Positions 7,683-16,043 of a stretch of DNA of 35,356 nt are shown piece by piece. The DNA lies in NCBI GenBank assembly GCA_902762435.1, contig CACWOH010000019.1, forward strand, positions 1 through 35,356. The letters run 5' to 3'. Both the position numbers and the translations under genes were made by a program. The notes beneath the pieces were generated by a model. It was not told the DNA's origin, searched no databases, and saw nothing but the letters and a program-made list of their open reading frames with translations. Every line of letters starts with the position of its first letter. Positions within the stretch are counted from its first letter, which is position 1. This stretch comes from an uncultured Bacteroidia bacterium. Lineage in GTDB: Bacteria > Bacteroidota > Bacteroidia > Bacteroidales > UBA932.

Positions 7683-7904
7683 ATGTATTGGACACTAGAA
7701 CTGGCCAGCGCCCTGGACGATGCTCCGTGGCCGGCTACCAAAGAAGAACTGATCGACTATGCAAACCGTTCCGGCGCCCCCGAAGAGGTGATCGAGAACC
7801 TGGAAGAACTGGAAGAGGAAGGCGAGATATACGAAACCATCGAAGACATCTGGCCCGACTACCCTACCAAAGACGATTTCTTCTTTAACGAAGAAGAGTA
7901 CTAA
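7683..7904 (+). CDS. DUF2795-family small acidic protein; integration target
   Basis: A 73-residue, highly acidic, soluble protein ending in DDFFFNEEEY. The pattern MYWTLELAS...DAPWPATKEELIDYA...EDIWPDYP is, from memory, typical of a small protein conserved in Bacteroidota and annotated DUF2795; its function is unknown. It has its own promoter and stands alone. Its last 23 bases (7882-7904) are repeated at 14456-14478 with only two synonymous third-position changes. The mobile element has therefore inserted into the 3' end and supplied replacement final codons and a new terminator, leaving the encoded protein intact. Confidence 0.88.
   Translation: MYWTLELASALDDAPWPATKEELIDYANRSGAPEEVIENLEELEEEGEIYETIEDIWPDYPTKDDFFFNEEEY
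7882..7904 (+). repeat. attL, left copy of the attachment sequence
   Basis: These 23 bases encode the final residues FNEEEY and the stop codon. They match 14456-14478 at 21 of 23 positions: TCTTTAACGA, one mismatch, GAAGAGTA, one mismatch, TAA. Sequence to the right (the terminator at 7944 and the integrase) belongs to the element. The likely crossover lies within TCTTTAACGA, the longest perfect block. Confidence 0.85.
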
Positions 7905-7943
7905 CGGACAAGTTGCTGATTTTCAGTAAATAACACTTACCTT

Positions 7944-7970
7944 ACCGCCTTTCGGGGCGGTTTTTTTCTT
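7944..7970 (+). terminator. Rho-independent terminator brought in by the element
   Basis: ACCGCCT, TTCG loop, GGGCGGT forms a 7-bp stem with one G-T pair, followed by seven T residues from 7961. It lies 39 bases after the DUF2795 stop and inside the element boundary, so it replaces the gene's original terminator, now at 14510. It also insulates the integrase from read-through. Confidence 0.85.
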
Positions 7971-7978
7971 TTCTTGCA

Positions 7979-8008
7979 ATCGCATTCCTACGCATTTGAG
8001 CGCAATAC
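7979..8008 (+). repeat. Left 10-bp-phased CGCAtt repeats, candidate integrase or Xis arm sites
   Basis: CGCATT, CGCATT and CGCAAT begin at 7981, 7991 and 8001, exactly one helical turn apart and in the same orientation. A matching trio with the same spacing lies inside the right end (CGC at 14369, 14379 and 14389). Short repeats inside both element ends are typical of arm-type sites bound by the integrase N-terminal domain, or of excisionase sites. The binding protein is inferred. Confidence 0.55.
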
Positions 8009-8051
8009 ATAAAAATATAACTTACCTTAAAGTTTATCCAAAACTTTACTT

Positions 8052-8059
8052 TAACTTTG
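8052..8059 (+). promoter_or_regulatory. -7 box of the integrase gene
   Basis: TAACTTTG matches TAnnTTTG, 28 bases before the integrase ATG at 8088. No clear -33 element is visible. Confidence 0.5.
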
Positions 8060-8087
8060 CGACAGGAATACTAAAAACCAGAAAGTT

Positions 8088-9434
8088 ATGCCACGGACAA
8101 AAGCCCAACTCCCGCAAGGAGGCTTTGCTTTGTTGAATAAATGCAATGGAAAAGGCGAGCAAGCCATATATATTCGCTACTACGTCGGCAAGTACATAAA
8201 ACGCAGTACGGACGTATGGATAGAACCCGATGACTGGGACGCAAAGAAACAAGAGGTAAAGCCCAGAAATAAGAATGCTGCACGGATCAACAATCGCTTG
8301 GCCCTTATCAAACAGAAGGTGGATGCTCAACTCCTCGCATACGATGATGGGAGGATTACGCCCGACGTTGTTCAGCAGATGCTGGATGGTTCATTCGTTC
8401 CAGAGGACAAACGTGCAAAGCATACTGATTTAGTAGAGTATGCATTAAATGTAAACGAGTTGTTCTACAAACGTGGGGACTTTGGCTACTCGGTTTATTA
8501 CAACAAGAAGTTGAACATCGAGACATTTGGCAGGTATGTTACCGAAGAACTCAAACTTCCCCCGCTCTCGTTAAACCAACTCACCCCTGAACTGATTGAC
8601 AAGTATATCAAGTACCGCCGCGATACACGCCACAACACCAGTAACGAGGGCATAAACAAGACTTTGGTTCCGCTCGTTAAAGCAATCGGATATGCCAAGG
8701 ACAATGGGTTGCTGGATCCCAAAATTGCCATGCCGGTCATAGAGAATGCTTATGTTGAGGTTAAGGATAGGCACTATGACCCGGATGTAACGGGAAAAAA
8801 GAGTGTCCGGTATCTTACCCCTGAGCAGTTCAAGGCGCTGCAGAATTATAAACCAGCTTCCAATTCCAAGGAACGGACGAAGGAACTGCTGGACATATTC
8901 TTCTTCTCTTATTATGCGTGCGGCCTCCGGGTATCTGATGTCATTACGTTGGAATGGTCGCAGGTGGATTGGGAGAAGAAACGGCTTGACAAGGTGCAAG
9001 TAAAGTCTAAACAGAAGGGCAAAGTGCAGCCAATGCTCGCCCCTCAGGCGATAGAGATTCTTAATCGCTGGAAGACGAAGAAGCGGAACGCGCGGTTTGT
9101 CTTTGACTTTTTCCCGGAAGACTTTAAATTCTCCGATGACACAGAGGCTCAACGGCAGTTCAAGATGCGCTGCAATGCCGTTGAACGCACCCTCAACCAG
9201 TCGTTGAAACAGATTGGTGAGAACCTTGAGTTTCCGTTCCATTTGAGTATGCACGTTGCACGGCACACCTTCTGTGTCAACGCGATTTCCCAAGGGTTCT
9301 CCCTACACTTCGTCAGCCAGCTTATGGGCCACCAAAGTATTCTGGCAACGGAGAAAACGTATGCAGAGTTCCTGGACACCACGATTGACAAGGAGTTCAA
9401 GAAGATTCGGAAACTCTACAAGGAGCAGGCATAA
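8088..9434 (+). CDS. int: Tyrosine integrase of the element
   Basis: A 448-residue site-specific recombinase of the Bacteroidota type. The N-terminal 100 residues or so form an arm-binding domain (IYIRYYVGKYIKRSTDVWI, then a basic linker), residues of about 110-220 form a SAM-like core-binding domain, and the rest is catalytic. Catalytic residues visible are Arg281 (CGLRVSD), a Lys in the 305-312 hairpin, His389 and Arg392 (HVARH), His415 (LMGHQS) and nucleophile Tyr425 (EKTYAEF). It would catalyse insertion and excision between attL and attR. It lies next to attL, as integrases normally do, and its 3' end overlaps the convergent excisionase-like gene by 19 bases. It appears intact. Confidence 0.95.
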   Translation: MPRTKAQLPQGGFALLNKCNGKGEQAIYIRYYVGKYIKRSTDVWIEPDDWDAKKQEVKPRNKNAARINNRLALIKQKVDAQLLAYDDGRITPDVVQQMLDGSFVPEDKRAKHTDLVEYALNVNELFYKRGDFGYSVYYNKKLNIETFGRYVTEELKLPPLSLNQLTPELIDKYIKYRRDTRHNTSNEGINKTLVPLVKAIGYAKDNGLLDPKIAMPVIENAYVEVKDRHYDPDVTGKKSVRYLTPEQFKALQNYKPASNSKERTKELLDIFFFSYYACGLRVSDVITLEWSQVDWEKKRLDKVQVKSKQKGKVQPMLAPQAIEILNRWKTKKRNARFVFDFFPEDFKFSDDTEAQRQFKMRCNAVERTLNQSLKQIGENLEFPFHLSMHVARHTFCVNAISQGFSLHFVSQLMGHQSILATEKTYAEFLDTTIDKEFKKIRKLYKEQA

Positions 9435-9691
9435 GCGTCGTAGTGGTGGCTCCGCAGGAAGTCCTCGATGTCCTTACCGGAGTAGTAATAGGTAGCCCCT
9501 ATTAAGGAGTAGGAGAGTTCACCCTCGTCCCGCCATTTCTTCAAGGTCGCAGAAGAGGCGTCCAGAAGTTCCATCATCTCCTTATTGGTATAGATGGTTT
9601 TGCTTTGCGGATTATTCAGCGCTTGAACCTGCCTAATCAGTTCTTGCAGGGTGTTTGTCAGTGATGCGTAGAAATCTGCTTCATTTGTCAT
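9416..9691 (-). CDS. Excisionase-like helix-turn-helix protein
   Basis: A 91-residue protein. Residues 1-30 look like a coiled coil or helix (ASLTNTLQELIRQVQAL), and residues of about 33-80 form a MerR/HTH_17-type winged helix (YTNKEMMELLDASSATLKKWRDEG, then a YYYSGKDIEDFL wing and helix). Such proteins in Bacteroidota mobile elements act as excisionases or regulators that bend att DNA. It sits tail-to-tail with the integrase, overlapping it by 19 bases. Its upstream region (9699-9747) holds two tandem palindromes that could be its own binding sites. The role is inferred from fold and position. Confidence 0.8.
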   Translation of the reverse strand: MTNEADFYASLTNTLQELIRQVQALNNPQSKTIYTNKEMMELLDASSATLKKWRDEGELSYSLIGATYYYSGKDIEDFLRSHHYDAYACSL

Positions 9692-9698
9692 TCTTGCG

Positions 9699-9747
9699 TT
9701 TGGTATCTGCCCGCCGGCAGTGATTATTGCCCGAAGGCAGTACCAAT
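9699..9747. promoter_or_regulatory. Two tandem CTGCC-N4-GGCAG palindromes inside a larger inverted repeat
   Basis: CTGCCCGCCGGCAG (9707-9720) and TTGCCCGAAGGCAG (9727-9740) are spaced exactly 20 bp apart, so they face the same side of the helix. They are flanked by TTTGGTA (9699-9705) and TACCAAT (9741-9747), which extend the symmetry. A TATATTGG on the minus strand just beyond (9742-9749) is one mismatch from the -7 consensus. This suggests an operator upstream of the excisionase-like gene. No T-run follows, so a terminator is less likely. Confidence 0.45.
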
Positions 9748-9774
9748 ATACAAAAATGATTTTTCTTCACATGA

Positions 9775-10335
9775 TCAAAGGAGCTCCTCAATGTCGTTCA
9801 TTATGTTCCGGGCGATGTAGTTTGCGACGAGTTCGTCCGTGTAGTGGTACTTGGTAATAAACTTATCATCTGGCTCATACACGATGGTTGTGTAATCATC
9901 TCCCTTTGGGCAAAAAGACAAGAACAACCTTCTACTCTTGTTGTCATACAACAACGCCACCGGGTAAGCGCCTTCATACAAACCGCATAAGGAGATTGTC
10001 CCATCGGTTTTGAGGCATCGAAGCACGAACCCCTCCACTTCTTTTAAAAAACGCGCCGAACGGAAAATATAGGGCTTTTCAGACACTTCCACAGGGACAA
10101 GGACGTAATGCCTTTCTCCCATCTGTAATGTCCCGGCGGTGAAAGAGGGTTGTGTCTCCGGGAATAGCTCCCGCACCTCAACACCCAAGGCAGAGGCGAC
10201 ATCCACCAACGTGGAAAGTTTGGGATTACCTTTCAAACTGGCGGACAGGTTCGATTGATCAATATTTAGTTTTTTGGCCAAGTCAGCCATCCTCATACCC
10301 CTTTCTTTGAGGATTTCGTAGATTTTTAGTTCCAT
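9775..10335 (-). CDS. XRE-family transcriptional regulator of the element
   Basis: A 186-residue protein whose N-terminal 60 residues form a Cro/CI-type helix-turn-helix (ILKERGMRMADLAKKLNID, QSNLSASLKG, STLVDVASALGVEVRELF). The remaining 120 residues or so are an unrecognised beta-rich domain, with no Ser/Lys autocleavage motif that I can see. It is transcribed divergently from the WYL_2-type gene across a 151-base AT-rich region. An inverted repeat, ACCTATTT/AAATAGGT, brackets its own -7 box, suggesting autorepression. It is probably the switch deciding between quiescence and excision. A purine stretch (GGAGGTG) lies upstream of the start. Confidence 0.85.
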   Translation of the reverse strand: MELKIYEILKERGMRMADLAKKLNIDQSNLSASLKGNPKLSTLVDVASALGVEVRELFPETQPSFTAGTLQMGERHYVLVPVEVSEKPYIFRSARFLKEVEGFVLRCLKTDGTISLCGLYEGAYPVALLYDNKSRRLFLSFCPKGDDYTTIVYEPDDKFITKYHYTDELVANYIARNIMNDIEELL

Positions 10336-10338
10336 AAC

Positions 10339-10385
10339 ACCTATTTTTCACCTCCAAAAATAAGAAATAGGTTTTTAATAACAAA
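10339..10385 (-). promoter_or_regulatory. Promoter and probable operator of the XRE regulator
   Basis: On the minus strand TATTTTTG (10355-10362) is preceded by TTTG (10382-10385) at 19-base spacing, a full match to the Bacteroidota promoter consensus. The inverted repeat ACCTATTT (10339-10346) / AAATAGGT (10365-10372) flanks the -7 box symmetrically and is a plausible repressor site. Confidence 0.65.
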
Positions 10386-10422
10386 ATAATAGCATTTTTT
10401 ACATAAAAGAAAACCAAGAATA

Positions 10423-10454
10423 TTTGGATAACACATTATAAAGTACTATATTTG
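10423..10454 (+). promoter_or_regulatory. Promoter of the WYL_2-recombinase operon
   Basis: TTTG (10423-10426), a 20-base spacer and TATATTTG (10447-10454) match the Bacteroidota consensus exactly. The ATG at 10487 lies 32 bases downstream. It is divergent from the XRE promoter, with about 40 bases between the two -33 elements. Confidence 0.75.
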
Positions 10455-10486
10455 TATTAGAAATATATGACAAAGCACCAAGAATT

Positions 10487-10825
10487 ATGAATACCCTTGC
10501 AATCACCACCTCCGATGCTCTCCTCGCCCGTCAAATCGTAGCCGTATCCACCAAGAAAAACTCCGCTTACGTCGGAATCGCCAAGTCCCTCCTCATCGAG
10601 GAAGCCAAGCGCCAGATGCGCTCCGGCACCTGTCACTTCCTCTATGTCAAGAAAGACGGCTCCATTCGGGAGGCTTTCGGAACCCTCAACGCCACCCTCT
10701 GTGGCAAGCATATCAACGGACGCGGACAATCTCCGGAGAGCTGGGGCTGTTCCTGCTACTTCGACATCGAGAAAGGGCAGTTCCGCTCTTTCCGCTGGGC
10801 CAACATCATTGACATACTCTCCTAA
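10487..10825 (+). CDS. WYL_2 / DUF2693-like small protein
   Basis: A 112-residue soluble protein. The central pattern FLYVKKDGSIREAFGTLN, followed by a variable loop and YFDIEKGQFRSFRW, is what I recall for the DUF2693 (WYL_2, SH3-like barrel) family common in Bacteroidota phages and mobile elements; its molecular role is unknown. It is preceded by a consensus promoter and followed after 11 bases by the small recombinase, so the two are probably co-transcribed. It is GC-richer than the neighbouring regulator and cargo genes, which points to a mosaic origin of the element. Confidence 0.75.
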   Translation: MNTLAITTSDALLARQIVAVSTKKNSAYVGIAKSLLIEEAKRQMRSGTCHFLYVKKDGSIREAFGTLNATLCGKHINGRGQSPESWGCSCYFDIEKGQFRSFRWANIIDILS

Positions 10826-10836
10826 TCCTCAACGAG

Positions 10837-11427
10837 ATGGCACTTAAGAACCAATACACGACGGCGGACTACATCGAATGGGACGAGGCGATGAACCTCG
10901 TCCGCCGCCTGTATCGGGACGGAGATTACCGGATGTCCCTGCTCATCGGCTGCGGCTGCTTCTTCGGGTTGAGGTTCTCCGACCTGCGGACGCTCCGATG
11001 GGAGCAGGTGCTCTCCAAGGACGGCACGTTTGCCCTGTATGAGCAGAAGACCGGGAAGCGCCGGGAGATAAAGATCAACAAGGGCTTCCAGCAGCACGCC
11101 CGGGACTGCTGGCGGGCCCTTGGGGGTGTTGATCTTTCGCAGCCGTGCTTCACCAGCAGATACGGATCGGTCTTGACCTCGCAGATGGTAAACCGCCATC
11201 TTAAAAAGATCAAGACCGCCTATCAGTTGAAAGCAAAGAACGTCAGCACACACTCCCTTCGCAAAACCTTTGGCCGCCGGGTCGTGGACATGGCTGGCTC
11301 CGACGCTGAAATGGCTCTAATCAGACTCTCTGAGCTCTTTAACCACTCCAGCCCTTCCGTCACCAAACGTTACCTCGGCCTCAGGCAGGAAGAACTTGGG
11401 GAGGTGTATGAAAGGCTGACGTTCTGA
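10837..11427 (+). CDS. Second, minimal tyrosine recombinase (catalytic domain only)
   Basis: A 196-residue protein that consists almost entirely of a tyrosine recombinase catalytic domain. All expected residues are present: Arg46 (FGLRFSD), Lys71 (EQKTGK), His139 and Arg142 (STHSLRKTF), His170 (FNHSS) and Tyr179 (TKRYLGL). It lacks the N-terminal arm- and core-binding domains of the integrase at 8088, so it is not a duplicate of it. Length resembles stand-alone inversion or resolution recombinases such as the Fim/Mpi type. It might resolve dimers, invert a promoter or assist excision; no target inverted repeat was found. It follows the WYL_2-type gene by 11 bases. Confidence 0.88.
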   Translation: MALKNQYTTADYIEWDEAMNLVRRLYRDGDYRMSLLIGCGCFFGLRFSDLRTLRWEQVLSKDGTFALYEQKTGKRREIKINKGFQQHARDCWRALGGVDLSQPCFTSRYGSVLTSQMVNRHLKKIKTAYQLKAKNVSTHSLRKTFGRRVVDMAGSDAEMALIRLSELFNHSSPSVTKRYLGLRQEELGEVYERLTF

Positions 11428-11453
11428 GGCTTCGTTTATATGTGGAATACACC

Positions 11454-11831
11454 TCATTCTCTTTGTCTTCGGTATTCATGCCACTTACTGTTTACATTTA
11501 GGTCTCGCACCGCCTCATCCTCGGTGCCAAAATATATCGCACCTCTTTTCTCGCTAATAATCAACGTTTTACTTCCTCCGTAATAAACAAAGTAATATGG
11601 TTGAGGTGGCCAATTCAACCGCCCTTTATCTTCAACGTATGACCAATCACCACTTACACCATTGACAGACGCTGTTTGAGGTTTGTCATTAAGAATAATC
11701 TTGCCACCGTCATAAGTAAAGACTGTTTTCGTGGGCAGTGAAGGGTTGGTATTACCGTTATTTTGGTTCCCACATGATGTTGCAATAAACATCACGCAGC
11801 AAATAAATAATGCGAAATAATAGTTTCTCAT
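11454..11831 (-). CDS. Unknown small lipoprotein, cargo gene 3
   Basis: A 125-residue protein from the ATG at 11829-11831. Starting at 11867 would add 12 residues in front of an otherwise perfect signal peptide and overlap the upstream gene, so I prefer the later start. The signal peptide ends in IATSC (Cys20) followed by an Asn/Gly-rich linker. The mature part is short and beta-rich (TVFTYDGGKIILN, YYFVYYGGSKTLIIS), a possible small beta-sandwich. Family not recognised. It starts 8 bases after the stop of the other lipoprotein gene and is the last gene of an AT-rich minus-strand cargo block. Confidence 0.7.
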   Translation of the reverse strand: MRNYYFALFICCVMFIATSCGNQNNGNTNPSLPTKTVFTYDGGKIILNDKPQTASVNGVSGDWSYVEDKGRLNWPPQPYYFVYYGGSKTLIISEKRGAIYFGTEDEAVRDLNVNSKWHEYRRQRE

Positions 11832-11839
11832 ATTCGATG

Positions 11840-12319
11840 TTATTTTCGTGTCATTTTCCAGTGCCATCCTTGAGTGCTTGGAGTATCAAGTAGGGATTTA
11901 AAACGGGACCACGTATCACATTTCTCGGACACAACGTTTCCTTTTGTATCAATAGAATACCAATAATGATAATCTTTACTCTCATGGTCTATCCGCATAA
12001 TATACCAAACATGTTTTTCTCCGTCAAAAGTCTCGGTGAGTTTTTCAGTCAGCATTCCTGTTGAATTCCTATATGACACTTCACCATTAAATGTATTCTT
12101 CAAATGTTTGGATAATGAGTGGTCGGCATTGATGGTTAATTCTTCTTCATATATGTCTCTTAATCCACCAGCATTATTGGTGCTAGTGTGTGTTGAAGAA
12201 AGAACACCGGGTGTTATTACTCCTTCAAAAAAAGTGTCCGACTTTGAATTCCCACCATTGTTTCCACCACAGGAGAAAATCATGAAAATGCTTAGAAAAG
12301 CGACTACTACTTTTTTCAT
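11840..12319 (-). CDS. Unknown small lipoprotein, cargo gene 2
   Basis: A 159-residue protein. Its signal peptide ends in IFSC (Cys17) and is followed by an Asn/Gly linker like that of its downstream neighbour. The mature domain (FEGVITPGVLSSTHT..., FNGEVSYRNSTGM, EKHVWYIMRIDHESKDYHYWYSID) looks like antiparallel beta strands, perhaps lipocalin-like, but I do not recognise the family. It starts 10 bases after the first cargo gene and ends 8 bases before the third. Codon use is AT-rich, unlike the chromosomal lipoproteins in this window, consistent with acquisition. Two surface lipoproteins as cargo suggest exclusion, competition or adhesion, which is speculation. Confidence 0.75.
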   Translation of the reverse strand: MKKVVVAFLSIFMIFSCGGNNGGNSKSDTFFEGVITPGVLSSTHTSTNNAGGLRDIYEEELTINADHSLSKHLKNTFNGEVSYRNSTGMLTEKLTETFDGEKHVWYIMRIDHESKDYHYWYSIDTKGNVVSEKCDTWSRFKSLLDTPSTQGWHWKMTRK

Positions 12320-12329
12320 ATCCTTTTAC

Positions 12330-12896
12330 TTATTTCAAACAACGTAAAGCGTCTTCAACAACAGAGAAGTCTTTTGCAGACTCAAACTGAATGGTTAGGG
12401 GATAGATACCTGTTTTGAGGAGCTCGGCAAGCCGCTCAGAAAGAGAAAGAGAATTACCATCACCTTCTGCGAAATAATTCGCGTTTTTTGGTTCAATTAG
12501 TTTCATAATAACTGAGTTGCGTAGCTGACTCCTCGCTACAAAAAACAACAACAAAAGTGTGGAGCCCTCTTCCGCATATTCTTCAGGAGGCTTCGCAGGG
12601 CCTTGACAGAAATAAACTTCGGATAAAACTCCACACTCGGCTTGATATGGAGTTCTGTCCTGAGAACCGGGACATACCGCATAACCAATGCACGAGCGGA
12701 AATAATTATCACCGTCCTTCTGTCGTTGAAACTGCGAATTTCCTGAAGAGGACGCGAAAACACTTTCGCTAATATGTACGCCATCTTGCGATGACTGCTC
12801 TAATATACGAATTCTATTGCAGAATTCCCAGCAAAAGATCAAGATAATGAAAAAACACAACTTTGCTGGATCAGCGCCTCGGGTTTCACATATCAC
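12330..12896 (-). CDS. Unknown membrane-anchored protein, cargo gene 1; start uncertain
   Basis: The open frame has 188 residues but begins with GTG (12894-12896); a TTG at 12858-12860 is an alternative, and the only in-frame ATG is at 12504-12506. Residues 14-33 are hydrophobic (CFFIILIFCW...) and would act as a membrane anchor or signal. The rest has several cysteines and a C-terminal part that reads convincingly as protein (KLIEPKNANYFAEGDG, SLSERLAELL). The codons follow a purine-any-pyrimidine pattern better than the competing frame at 12536-12784. It is 10 bases upstream of the lipoprotein gene, so the three probably form one operon. The N-terminus could be decayed or frameshifted near a T-run at about 12850. 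Confidence 0.45.
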   Translation of the reverse strand: MICETRGADPAKLCFFIILIFCWEFCNRIRILEQSSQDGVHISESVFASSSGNSQFQRQKDGDNYFRSCIGYAVCPGSQDRTPYQAECGVLSEVYFCQGPAKPPEEYAEEGSTLLLLFFVARSQLRNSVIMKLIEPKNANYFAEGDGNSLSLSERLAELLKTGIYPLTIQFESAKDFSVVEDALRCLK

Positions 12897-12986
12897 ATAA
12901 GTGAAACTCGTAAATAACGAAAAACGAGCACTTTAGCATTTTGCCGCTTGGTACTCGTTTCACTTTTGCCTCCCGGGCTCGTTTTT
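12883..12986. repeat. Nested and interleaved inverted repeats between cargo and the DUF6291-like gene
   Basis: GTTTCAC (12883-12889) pairs with GTGAAAC (12901-12907). The longer AAGTGAAAC (12899-12907) can instead pair with GTTTCACTT (12957-12965). AAAAACGAGC (12920-12929) pairs with GCTCGTTTTT (12977-12986). The last two pairs interleave (A-B-A'-B'), a pseudoknot-like topology. Together they cover the whole intergenic stretch upstream of the cargo operon and downstream of 13008. They could be a terminator, a regulatory RNA fold or protein-binding sites. Confidence 0.4.
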
Positions 12987-13007
12987 GGGACTTCAAAACC
13001 CGCTGGA

Positions 13008-13538
13008 TCAAAACGGCTTGTCGTCCTCATCATCCTCCTCGCTCCGGTGTATTTGCTCGTTACGGCTCTCTTGAATTGCCTGGACCCCCGCTTGGATGTC
13101 CTGAATAACGCCTCCTTTCGCCTCCTTAAAGGTTGGGAGCCGTTCATATCTTTGGAGGATAAGTGCCGCCTCCACTGCAAGTGCCCCTTCCGAGTTCAGT
13201 TCCCTGCCCTGCACCTTGGAGAGTGCTATCTTGTCAATAGCGTGCTCGTACCGCTCTACGAGTTCCGTCCGCGACATGCCTTCGACCAGTTGGTGTATCC
13301 AAGGAGCATCCTCCATCGCGAAGGATACCGACAGCCCGGGTCCAGAATTTCTTTCTGGAATAGGAGAAAAAGAATTACCAATAGTCCTCCCGGAACCCCT
13401 TGCGGGTTCCATCGCCGCAGGCGACTGGATATATTCAACATTATCATTCTCTTTTTCATCTTCATCAACATCTACATTAAGGGGTTTTCTTGGGGTTTCA
13501 CCCAGCTTCTGTGCTATCCGACGCTTATTCCTCTCCAC
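13008..13538 (-). CDS. C-terminal part of a DUF6291-like protein split by an in-frame TGA
   Basis: This 176-residue frame formally starts at a GTG (13536-13538), but the frame is open a further 14 codons up to the TGA at 13581-13583 and is the same frame as the ORF upstream. Those 14 codons encode KGGRPRKGESREAY, a basic linker typical of the middle of DUF6291 proteins. The fragment then has an acidic Asp/Asn-rich linker (NVDVDEDEKENDN) and a C-terminal helical region ending in a Glu/Asp cluster. Without read-through or an independent start it would not be made. No strong ribosome site precedes the GTG; an AAAGGAGAG lies about 15 bases upstream. Confidence 0.55.
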   Translation of the reverse strand: MERNKRRIAQKLGETPRKPLNVDVDEDEKENDNVEYIQSPAAMEPARGSGRTIGNSFSPIPERNSGPGLSVSFAMEDAPWIHQLVEGMSRTELVERYEHAIDKIALSKVQGRELNSEGALAVEAALILQRYERLPTFKEAKGGVIQDIQAGVQAIQESRNEQIHRSEEDDEDDKPF

Positions 13539-13580
13539 GTAGGCTTCCCGGCTCTCTCCTTTGCGCGGCCGGCCGCCCTT

Positions 13581-13832
13581 TCACCCGTGTTCCTTTCCCA
13601 ACTCGCCGTTCTCCACGGCTTTCTTATAACGGCTTGTTGCCGCTTTGATATTCGGCTTCGCCATCATCAAGATGATATTGACAACCGGGTCCTTTGAAGA
13701 AACCTCTTCACCATATAACGCGTAGTCCCTCAACTTGAGCACACACTCCTTGAAAGCCTCTCCATCCAAACCTTCCGCCGCCTCCAAGAACGAGGCGTAC
13801 ATTACAAAACTCTGCTTACTCTTGTCCATCAT
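13581..13832 (-). CDS. N-terminal DUF6291-like domain, ending at a premature TGA
   Basis: 83 residues: KQSFVMYASFLEAAEGLDGEAF..., then a helical segment and KPNIKAATSRYKKAVENGELG. This is the pattern I recall for DUF6291, a domain found in phages and mobile elements of Bacteroidota and Firmicutes, with unknown function. Family members normally continue into a GGRPRK-type basic linker and an Asn/Val/Asp-rich tail. Here the frame stops at TGA (13581-13583) and then resumes in the same frame with exactly such a linker. The start overlaps the stop of the upstream small gene by 17 bases, indicating translational coupling. Confidence 0.65.
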   Translation of the reverse strand: MMDKSKQSFVMYASFLEAAEGLDGEAFKECVLKLRDYALYGEEVSSKDPVVNIILMMAKPNIKAATSRYKKAVENGELGKEHG

Positions 13833-14055
13833 ATTCTTCAGTTTCTAGTATTATGTCATCAATGGTGGTGCCTCCGGCATCCATAGTGCTTCCGTTCTTG
13901 GGAGGAATAGCAGCCCACGCTCGCCTCAACCCTGCGGAGATTTTCGCTTTCGTTTCGGGTGATTTTGGTTTTTGCAGGTTAGCGTTGTTTCTTAATTTCG
14001 CTTTTACGTACTCCGGCATCTCGCGGGAGGTACGCTTATAATTCTTCGTATCCAT
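13816..14055 (-). CDS. Small basic protein with a NUMOD3-like motif
   Basis: A 79-residue protein. Residues 1-50 are basic and include the stretch KSPETKAKISAGLRRAW, which resembles the NUMOD3 DNA-binding motif of homing endonucleases and mobile-element proteins. The C-terminal 25 residues are acidic. It has no nuclease motif, so at most it is a DNA-binding accessory protein. It is the first gene of the minus-strand block and overlaps the DUF6291-like gene by 17 bases. No exact TAnnTTTG box lies directly upstream. Function unknown. Confidence 0.6.
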   Translation of the reverse strand: MDTKNYKRTSREMPEYVKAKLRNNANLQKPKSPETKAKISAGLRRAWAAIPPKNGSTMDAGGTTIDDIILETEEYDGQE

Positions 14056-14455
14056 AGTTTCTAAACTTTTTACACTATAAATACTTACTAACTCCGGAAA
14101 GTGACATAAATCCGCAGTTTTTATACACGGGACAATCCGGGAGCCTCAACACGCCTGTATTTTCGGGATAATCGTTGACGAATTCTTACCCTGTTTTGAA
14201 CAGACTAAAAATCCGGCCGGGAATTTACACACGCCTCCGGGGGCGGCTAGGAGCATACTAACCCTACGGCAGACTTTTTCATCGACTTACACTGGACGCT
14301 TTCCCGAGATGGAGTTTCCCCCTGGGGGAGTCCGGTATCCGGAGGTGGAGTTTCCCATAGCAATTTATCGCATTTTATCGCTTTACATCGCATCTATAAT
14401 CACCTTAAATTTAAACTAAAATACAATAGAATACGTTATAAGAGACATAAATTAA
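14056..14455. other. Gene-free right end of the element
   Basis: 400 bases without a convincing ORF. It holds several short symmetric or repeated sequences: the palindrome CCGGCCGG (14212-14219), CCCCCTGGGGG (about 14318-14328), a direct repeat TGGAGTTTCCC (14310-14320 and 14346-14356, 36 bases apart), and the phased ATCGC repeats near attR. It could contain the promoter of the 14055 gene, an origin of transfer or replication, and recombinase sites. None of these can be fixed from sequence alone. Confidence 0.5.
14367..14395 (+). repeat. Right 10-bp-phased ATCGC repeats, candidate arm sites
   Basis: ATCGCATTTT, ATCGCTTTAC and ATCGCATCTA begin at 14367, 14377 and 14387, exactly one helical turn apart. 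They mirror the trio at 7979-8008 inside the left end, same strand and spacing, giving a shared consensus near ATCGCATTT. They lie about 60-90 bases from attR. Confidence 0.55.
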
Positions 14456-14478
14456 TCTTTAACGAGGAAGAGTATTAA
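14456..14478 (+). repeat. attR, right copy of the attachment sequence
   Basis: This copy still reads in frame as the last residues of the DUF2795 protein (FNEEEY, stop) but is not attached to any gene. It differs from attL only by GAA to GAG and TAC to TAT, both synonymous. It is the original chromosomal 3' end, displaced by the element, and is followed within 32 bases by the original terminator. Confidence 0.85.
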
Positions 14479-14509
14479 GAGAGAATCTTACTCTTAACAT
14501 ACTGATTTA

Positions 14510-14552
14510 CAGCGAGATAAGCAAAATTAATTTGTTTGTCTCGCTGTTTTTT
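14510..14552 (+). terminator. Orphaned original terminator of the DUF2795 gene
   Basis: CAGCGAGATAAGCAAA (14510-14525) pairs with TTTGTTTGTCTCGCTG (14531-14546) as a 16-bp stem with two G-T pairs and a 5-base loop, followed by six T residues. It has no gene upstream at its present position. Its place 32 bases after the displaced 3' end of the DUF2795 gene explains it. Confidence 0.85.
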
Positions 14553-14784: not shown

Positions 14785-15960
14785 CTATTTCTTCCAGAGT
14801 TTCGGGAGGAATCCGTAATAGAGGAGATGCCGCCAGGTGGACCAGTCGTGGCCGGTTTCCCCGATACAGAAGTACTCGTATTCGATCCCGTGCTTGTCGA
14901 GCGCATCCCGGAAGCCTTTGACACGCACGTTGAACATGCCCTTCTCTTCCGCGCCTCCCTGTCCGATGAACAGGTAATCCACCTTGTCGTTGGCTTTCGG
15001 GTCATTGAGGAACCCGGCCAGGGTCTGCTCGGGCGTGTTGTCACCGGCGCTGAGCACACCGAAATTCGCGAAAAGATCCAGGGACTTCAGCCCGACGAAG
15101 ATCGTGTGACGCCCCCCCATCGAGAGACCGGAAATGGCGCGGCCATGCGGATTGGCGATGGTCTTGTAGTGGCTATCGACGAAGGGGATGACGGCCTCGC
15201 GGTACTCACGCTCCATGATATCGAACGTGAGGTCCGCGTGCTGCGGATGATTGCGGTGAACGACCTGATTGTTCACAAGTGCGATCAGCATCGGTTCGGC
15301 CTTCCCTTCTGCGAGAAGGTTGTCCATGATGAAGTTCACGCGGCCGTCGTACATCCAGTTGGACGGGAGTTCGCCGCTGCCGCCCATGAGATAGAGGACG
15401 GGGTACTCCTTCTGCGGGTCATACCGGGGAGGGGTATAGACATAGATCTCCCGCTCCCCTTTGGTAACCGGACTGTAGTAGATATGGCGGGTGACGGCCC
15501 CGTGGGGCACATCCTTCGCGTCCCACCAGGAGGGGCCGTCGCCGTGGACGATAAGCTCGCTGTAAGGAGGCATGGCCGTGAAGGAGGCATACGTATTGTT
15601 GGGATCCGCCATCTTGACTCCGTCGACGACGAGATTGTACTGGTACATATCGACCGGAAGCGGGCCGATGGTAAGGGTCCAGATGCCGTCTTCCCCCTTG
15701 GTGAAAGGGATGTTTCCGCGGGCGCCCATGACCGTGGTCATCGCGCCAGAAAGGGCCACGGACTCCGCTTTCGGGGCCCTGAGCCGGAAAATGACGGTAT
15801 GGTCGTCATTCACCTGCGGCGAATTCAGGTTCGCGCTGAAGGGAATCAGGCCCTCGGTGTCTTTCTGAGGGTTGTAGCTGAGGTTTACGTTCGACTGCTG
15901 GGCGAAAGCCGTCAGGGCGACAAGTAGCGAGACCGCCACGGAGATTGTTTTTTTGTTCAT
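14785..15960 (-). CDS. CE1-like secreted esterase with N-terminal Ig-like domain and altered active-site motifs
   Basis: 391 residues from the ATG at 15958-15960, chosen because the signal peptide (ending TAFAQQ) begins there; the open frame extends 13 codons further up. Residues of about 48-140 form an E-set/CBM48-like Ig domain (VIFRLRAPKAESVALSG, YQYNLVVDG). Residues 150-391 form a feruloyl/acetyl esterase-type alpha/beta hydrolase with Ser280 (GLSMGG) and His371 (ETGHDW). The usual LHGxGG oxyanion motif reads LMGGSGE, and the usual Asp motif (GDTDF in its paralogues) reads GQGGAEEK. Either acidic residue could serve, or activity may be changed. An imperfect -7 box (TATATTGC, 15996-16003, minus) lies upstream. 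It is separated from the related 32822-35185 cluster. Confidence 0.88.
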   Translation of the reverse strand: MNKKTISVAVSLLVALTAFAQQSNVNLSYNPQKDTEGLIPFSANLNSPQVNDDHTVIFRLRAPKAESVALSGAMTTVMGARGNIPFTKGEDGIWTLTIGPLPVDMYQYNLVVDGVKMADPNNTYASFTAMPPYSELIVHGDGPSWWDAKDVPHGAVTRHIYYSPVTKGEREIYVYTPPRYDPQKEYPVLYLMGGSGELPSNWMYDGRVNFIMDNLLAEGKAEPMLIALVNNQVVHRNHPQHADLTFDIMEREYREAVIPFVDSHYKTIANPHGRAISGLSMGGRHTIFVGLKSLDLFANFGVLSAGDNTPEQTLAGFLNDPKANDKVDYLFIGQGGAEEKGMFNVRVKGFRDALDKHGIEYEYFCIGETGHDWSTWRHLLYYGFLPKLWKK

Positions 15961-16043
15961 AGTAGTGTTATTTATACGCTGCAATGGAATACCCTGCAAT
16001 ATACGAAAAATTCTGATGGTATTTCGCTCCCTGTTACATCATT

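Follow-up and report, generated by a model that had tools for sequence, protein, structure and literature searches.

What could place a second copy of the end of a protein-coding gene some 6.6 kb downstream of the gene itself? The question is raised by the window analyzed here, a 35,356-nucleotide stretch (positions 1 to 35,356) of contig CACWOH010000019.1 of assembly GCA_902762435.1 from an uncultured Bacteroidia bacterium (Bacteroidales, UBA932), in which positions 14456-14478 repeat the final bases of a DUF2795 gene (7882-7904). We conclude with high confidence that the 6.55 kb between the two copies (7905-14455) is an integrative element inserted by site-specific recombination in the 3' end of the DUF2795 gene. 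A direct repeat equal to this 3' end stands at both borders of the insert: 21 of 23 bases are identical, and the two mismatches (A/G at 7892/14466 and C/T at 7901/14475) are the third bases of GAA/GAG and TAC/TAT codons. A pattern spanning both copies and allowing up to 3 mismatches matched only these two places in the window (0.00 matches expected from 100 shuffles) and no others in the entire assembly (2.30 Mb, 2,301,878 bases in 46 contigs; completeness 95.87%). DUF2795 was matched in 54 of the 61 genomes searched, as a single copy in 53 of the 54, and ARAGORN found no tRNA or tmRNA gene in the window.

Most likely the right copy preserves the allele that preceded insertion, because the DUF2795 tail of genome G001, from the same genus, matches it at 23 of 23 bases. 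If G001 shows the older allele, the crossover would lie left of 7892, within 7882-7891, the right copy having the G001 allele at both variable positions. The sequence-only reading had described the repeat with its two synonymous mismatches, taken the right copy as the original gene end, given the element a length of about 6.6 kb with the host protein unchanged, and placed an integrase just inside the left copy. The repeat proved unique in the assembly, the G001 tail supports the origin of the right copy, and the length, the unchanged protein and the integrase (a tyrosine integrase at 8088-9434) were all borne out.

This integrase, with arm, core-binding and catalytic domains, lies at one border of the insert and keeps the conserved R, H-x-x-R, H and Y catalytic positions. 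Insertion would occur by recombination between the 21-23 bp core in the DUF2795 3' end and a matching core on a circular form of the element, probably catalyzed by this enzyme, and the element would be able to excise and circularize. Because the circle would carry a synonymous copy of the last DUF2795 codons, the C-terminus FNEEEY-stop is kept, and the gene would gain a new terminator-like hairpin. In the element, the HTH_17 protein probably serves as the excision directionality factor and the Cro/C1-like protein as the repressor. The interpretation draws on features that the sequences compared below show directly: the repeats and their recurrence, the joined site found in relatives, the clade formed by the integrases, and the ends lying in tandem.

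The recurrence was examined with a codon-degenerate pattern of the 23-bp tail, which was searched in 392 Bacteroidales genomes with the reversed pattern as control. The tail pattern was present in 257 of the 392 genomes, with two or more copies in 23, while the reversed pattern had no matches in all 392. The number 23 is a lower bound, because copies with a changed first codon can escape the pattern (e.g., in G402). Among the matches listed, at least 12 of the 23 multi-copy genomes, including that of the window, have two copies on the same contig and strand, 0.4-28 kb apart, and at least five have copies on separate contigs. When 163 DUF2795 records were scored, the tail recurred downstream in 22 and upstream in none (the 22 include two loci counted twice, as well as L107, a short gene duplication, and L114, which is non-synonymous); five other 24-mers of DUF2795, used as controls, recurred downstream in 0, 0, 0, 1 and 5 of the 163. 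Across 20 tabulated left/right repeat pairs, codons 2-8 show 32 synonymous and no non-synonymous codon differences, although only 8 of 63 random single changes in the tail codons would be synonymous. The first codon changes the amino acid in 11 of the 20 pairs, which marks the 5' limit of the core. Eighteen of the pairs came from an unbiased scan; L250 and L253 were found with codon-conserving search letters, so their detection favors synonymy. The window element is one occupant of a site used in many Bacteroidales families by units of 0.4-28 kb, sometimes in tandem.

The integrases at this site form a clade of their own. With the window integrase as query, five integrases among 61 relatives matched at 1e-40, namely those of the window, G004, G023, G034 and G019; in G004, G023 and G034 the gene lies just behind DUF2795, and in G019 it lies away from the site. 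Across the 392 genomes, 15 matches in 14 genomes passed 1e-30, of which 14 lie within ~0.7 kb of a DUF2795 tail and 11, the window included, lie directly behind DUF2795 on the same strand. The L191 integrase stands behind a second tail copy and that of L178 just before a tail copy; that of L188 is encoded on the strand opposite to DUF2795, ~0.63 kb away from it. In a tree of 51 integrases, all 18 site rows, L188 and one open reading frame (ORF) of the viral contig L192 fell in a 100/100 clade of 20, with 31 outside; the L192 ORF in the tree is the first one, the neighbor of its best-matching second ORF. L157 (G019:C6), of 333 aa, joined the same clade when added, and 19 of the 21 sampled clade rows lie within ~0.7 kb of a DUF2795 tail. 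Some clade rows are truncated, the L151 ORF having only arm and SAM domains. A control search of 26 genomes with PF13102 found 88 integrases in 20 genomes, and none of the 84 SAM-like integrases whose place relative to DUF2795 is known adjoins DUF2795; the remaining four come from G061, which gave no DUF2795 gene. The cut-off of 1e-8 leaves out the window integrase (E=3e-6 for PF13102), so that the control samples other integrases by design. The search for integrases beside DUF2795 genes elsewhere, which the sequence-only reading had proposed, thus found them in other Bacteroidales genomes. By eye, the L157 integrase sits between two ORFs resembling the N-termini of SusC-type receptors, and it may have arisen within the clade as a recombinase for local DNA inversion.

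The same reading had proposed looking in relatives for an uninterrupted DUF2795 gene followed directly by the sequence from 14479 onward. Such an intact, joined gene was found in G001 (L016; 98.9% identity over 92 bp) and G017 (L014; 89.7% over 97 bp), both of the same genus as the source, on contigs that end 111-158 bp past DUF2795. The proposal therefore held as to the gene, though the joined flank resembles an element end and the site was probably occupied earlier. Where DUF2795 is followed by an integrase gene of a second subtype, as in L160, L165 and (broken) L113, the 70-75 bp right behind DUF2795 align with 14479-14547. In L165 such left-end sequence sits between two tail copies and is missing to the right of them, which speaks for 14479-14547 being element sequence and not host sequence. 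Because of its homology to the L113, L160 and L165 left ends, the site tested in G001 and G017 is probably not virgin chromosome, and the window site was probably occupied before the present insert, so that at least two occupations of one site would be recorded. The alternative that 14479-14547 is the host's own terminator was set aside on the L165 arrangement (L141 looks similar by eye), a decision that has evidence against it, given below.

Farther to the right, the esterase-like gene of the window has a 94% identical counterpart in G003, downstream of DUF2795 in the same orientation. The G001 esterase lies on another contig, which ends nearby, so that G001 does not show both flanks together. 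Tandem occupation is seen in L158, where a second, interrupted integrase follows the second tail copy, with its start codon ~160 bp away. Among 30 DUF2795 records of the same genus, the contig ends within 250 bp downstream of the gene in nine and within 250 bp upstream in none; such breaks are as expected for a population mixed at the site, and repeats could cause the same.

A common end motif was also found. Of 161 left ends, a few of them from overlapping records, 32 have YTGANWWWCAR within 50 bp past the stop codon (random 50-bp windows, 0.57%), and 8 of 18 right ends have it in the 45 bp preceding the core (random, 0.48%). The left positions of the motif are mostly +1, +11 to +14, +21 to +24 or +33, with one at +18, and its right positions are -23 in seven cases and -33 in one. 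Within the ends of the window element, a 17-nt repeat occurs twice on the left and a 24-nt repeat twice on the right; these could be arm sites, and nothing supporting this was found.

Table. Features of the DUF2795 locus in the window, with the evidence for each
Feature	Position	Strand	Evidence or remark
DUF2795 target gene	7683..7904	+	73 aa; PF11387 E=1.6e-20
attL core	7882..7904	+	23-bp repeat; last 7 DUF2795 codons (stop included) and 2 further bases
End motif CTGATTTTCAG just inside attL	7916..7926	.	YTGANWWWCAR
Terminator-like hairpin of the element, following the rebuilt gene end	7944..7961	+	1 found vs 0.5 expected in shuffles
Tyrosine integrase, complete	8088..9434	+	448 aa; Arm-DNA-bind_5, Phage_int_SAM_5, Phage_integrase (Pfam); PHROGs; clade of DUF2795-site integrases
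HTH_17 protein, probable excisionase	9416..9691	-	HTH_17 E=1.4e-10; excisionase PHROGs 3.5e-6 and 5e-6
Cro/C1-type repressor-like regulator	9775..10335	-	Pfam and PHROGs
WYL_2 domain protein	10487..10825	+	PF10902 E=1.1e-19
Second, short tyrosine recombinase, catalytic domain only	10837..11427	+	196 aa; Phage_integrase E=4.9e-15; phrog_216 1.9e-32
Predicted small lipoprotein	11454..11867	-	Lipobox-like Cys by eye; no Pfam or PHROG match
Predicted small lipoprotein	11840..12319	-	Lipobox-like Cys by eye; no Pfam match; one PHROG E=0.057
ORF without assigned family	12330..12896	-	No Pfam, PHROG or PADLOC match
ORF beyond in-frame stop, in frame of DUF6291 ORF	13008..13538	-	Sequence reading, Pfam
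DUF6291 protein, N-terminal part	13581..13832	-	PF19808 E=1.5e-12
Small ORF	13816..14055	-	Weak PHROG matches, E=0.02-0.03
attR core	14456..14478	+	23-bp repeat; identical to G001 tail; probably pre-insertion DUF2795 3' end
Left-end-like sequence of a different element subtype	14479..14547	+	Homology to L113, L160, L165 left ends, L016, L014
End motif CTGATTTACAG in right flank	14502-14512	within + feature 14479..14547	YTGANWWWCAR
Hairpin behind right copy	14509-14547	within + feature 14479..14547	Terminator-like
Esterase-like gene, right flank, outside the element	14785..15999	-	94% identical protein in G003

The genes inside the element are listed in the Table. Relatives of the HTH_17 protein lie a few kb from the integrase in L116, L117, L130, L151, L158, L159, L160, L165, L177 and L178. 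The DUF6291 ORF stops at a TGA, and its frame carries on into the ORF at 13008-13538, so DUF6291 (13008-13832) is likely a broken gene in the element. No ORF of the insert matched a relaxase or other mobilization family in Pfam or PHROG, and the window element thus has no recognized relaxase or mobilization gene of its own, which would define an integrative and mobilizable element (IME). Nor is it a cis-mobilizable element (CIME), which keeps its attachment sites and has lost its integrase, since the window integrase is complete. PADLOC, run on ten window proteins, matched the HTH regulator and no other. A profile search of the PDB returned Xer recombinases, IntI4, the HP1 integrase and one ribosome-associated chain, all distant.

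Several observations weigh against an element inserted at a dedicated site. For the window locus, no relative showed a chromosomal site that is strictly empty, and G003 has a 1.2-kb unit and an 825-aa ORF between DUF2795 and the esterase, the ORF lying between the tail copy and the esterase. Against the reading of 14479-14547 as element sequence, L062, L064, L076, L098 and L139 carry similar sequence behind DUF2795, with no integrase match in 4.6-10 kb downstream; we read these loci as remnants. The weakest integrase match (L190, E=1e-32) is not at the site, and two clade rows are without a DUF2795 tail, L157 (a 36% relative, E=7e-53) and L192. The closest relatives of the window integrase are 40-44% identical, no second copy of the window element was found, and its own right end is without the YTGANWWWCAR motif. 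The in-frame stop that splits DUF6291 is a possible sign of decay. Part of the pair detection demanded codon-conserving letters, and the unbiased scan also gave one non-synonymous candidate, L114 (G030:C33, ~+907), where a tail-like FNEEEHG follows an end motif (tail EEHG). This candidate was excluded from the pair table; its left end is 92.9% identical to the window element over 168 bp, with other DNA after, and it is perhaps a secondary site or a decayed copy.

Some of these points also bear on whether the element still moves. It is possible, although on balance unlikely, that the insert is a decayed or composite element, in which the ends of a former mobile element survive around an immobile present copy. 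The stop in DUF6291, the lack of recognized transfer genes (Pfam, PHROG), the second recombinase of another kind inside the element and the sequence behind attR that resembles the left end of another element would all suit such a history, but the integrase is complete with its conserved catalytic positions, the excisionase-like and repressor-like ORFs are open, and both cores are intact.

The Cro/C1-type regulator, the WYL_2 protein, the DUF6291 protein and the second recombinase match PHROG families, as would be expected if the insert were derived from a phage (a satellite or a prophage remnant) rather than being a mobilizable island. We consider this origin unlikely. No credible capsid, portal or packaging family was found with Pfam or PHROG, save that the HTH_17 protein matched a capsid family at chance level (E=0.094), and a search of 50,697 phage records gave no match to the window integrase at 1e-10. 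Viral contigs yielded 23 relatives of the integrase alignment, the best of which, the second integrase ORF of L192, is only 34% identical, and larger elements at the same site encode Mob_Pre. The integrase likewise had no match at 1e-10 in the plasmid collection, and no DUF2795 tail was found in the 12.8 kb of L192 that were searched.

That the right copy is the leftover of a duplicated DUF2795 gene, with the integrase a coincidental neighbor, is highly improbable: such a duplication was accepted for L107, whose 108-bp repeat includes coding sequence upstream of the tail, but was rejected for the window, where similarity begins abruptly at 14456 with no DUF2795 sequence upstream, the same 5' limit appears in many genomes through the first of the eight codons, and integrases recur at the site.

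In all, 23 units were counted at the site, i.e., the 20 pairs together with G291, L164 and L166 (the L164 and L166 stretches examined show two tail copies and no DUF2795 gene). A whole or truncated site integrase is present in eight of the 23, and the site-integrase profile has no match in the other 15, one of which, L167, retains an HTH_17-like stretch and therefore looks decayed. Mob_Pre relaxase domains were found in L158, L159, L160 and L165, and DUF3987 and DUF6371 proteins in L158. PADLOC was run on selected proteins of nine units chosen as promising (the window for completeness), so that rates of defense genes cannot be read from its matches: DruE in L119, FRG (PDC-S15) and CAP12/TIR-type (PDC-S35) in L118, type I restriction proteins and PDC-S02 in L159, HEC-06/Orf5-like and REase_I-like in L160/L161, an SspH-like stretch in L158, and weaker matches in L122, L163 and L164. 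Pfam added HipA parts in L164, Gp49 and HTH_3 in L163, SLFN_AlbA_2 in L122, DUF1848 in L141 and ORF6N in L166.

The right ends of the integrase-free L058 and L164 have 83-91 of 100 positions in common with those of the integrase-bearing L159, L165 and G291, vs 28-53 of 100 with seven other right ends. Both L058 and L164 may be deletion derivatives, or cassettes that are moved in trans. We tentatively raise the possibility that, throughout the order, integrase-bearing elements and integrase-free cassettes (defense, toxin-antitoxin) with the same ends stack behind DUF2795 on a last-in-first-out basis and that the cassettes are moved in trans by the integrases of co-resident or incoming elements, the site acting like a cassette array founded on the final codons of a protein gene. 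If integrase-free units do move in trans, this would be a further route for spreading defense genes.

The site can be compared with known systems. NBU1 and NBU2 use tRNA sites. The sequence-only reading had singled out a protein gene as an attachment site and knew of no described family using it. The first point needs qualification, as protein-gene targets have been published (dusA, trmE); the second stands, in that no paper on DUF2795 with an integrase as a site was found in the open-access literature. There, DUF2795 alone led to work on xylan catabolism and ammonia oxidizers, as judged by title, and the available part of one text (PMC6907783) contains none of the terms 'attachment site', 'integration site' and 'DUF'. 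The dusA study describes islands with a tyrosine integrase family that targets the dusA 5' end and highly varied cargo (PMC4482086). The DUF2795 system likewise has an integrase family with one shared conserved protein-coding target, a likeness drawn without comparison of the integrases, whereas its target is a 3' end in Bacteroidales. SGI1 resembles the window element in its use of a protein-gene 3' end, that of trmE, in which it sits (PMC8409611). Directionality factors, accretion and CIMEs are covered in a review of IMEs, which, unlike the window element, have a recognized relaxase, and DUF2795 does not appear in its available passages (PMC5704250). Those passages list NBU1, NBU2, Tn4555 and Prevotella MTnPi as small integrative elements of Bacteroidota, like the window element, with a tyrosine integrase and a directionality factor for NBU1 and Tn4555; the two preferred sites of Tn4555 and the short degenerate sites of MTnPi differ from the DUF2795 tail. 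Defense hotspots of Escherichia coli are also fixed chromosomal positions that collect varied defense cargo, some islands having integrases as their sole known mobility genes, but they are set by flanking core genes in one species (PMC10121019), whereas the DUF2795 site is a single gene tail with one integrase clade in many families. The general kind, accreting islands at protein-gene 3' ends, is known, and the site, its dedicated integrase clade and the stacked, partly integrase-free units were not found in open-access print.

The integrative element of the window adds a fixed, conserved Bacteroidales insertion site with its own integrase clade, recognizable by a 23-bp degenerate pattern. Through this site, anti-phage and toxin-antitoxin cargo of these bacteria can be located with exact boundaries, and the integrase and its attB could become an integration tool.

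Three minor observations were made at individual loci. G061, of the same genus and given as 100% complete, has one tail-pattern match and no DUF2795 gene at 1e-5; the tail is perhaps a copy left after gene loss, or the gene falls in an assembly gap. Near +1521 of L133 (G005), inspection by eye suggests that an element ORF continues in frame through the tail copy, with WWNEEEY-stop as its end. At the site, the elements L250 (G402) and L253 (G424) measure ~11 and ~14 kb, and both encode a small serine recombinase with a Resolvase domain; in G402 an integrase lies at the right end and the repeat extends nearly identical for at least 76 bp past the core.

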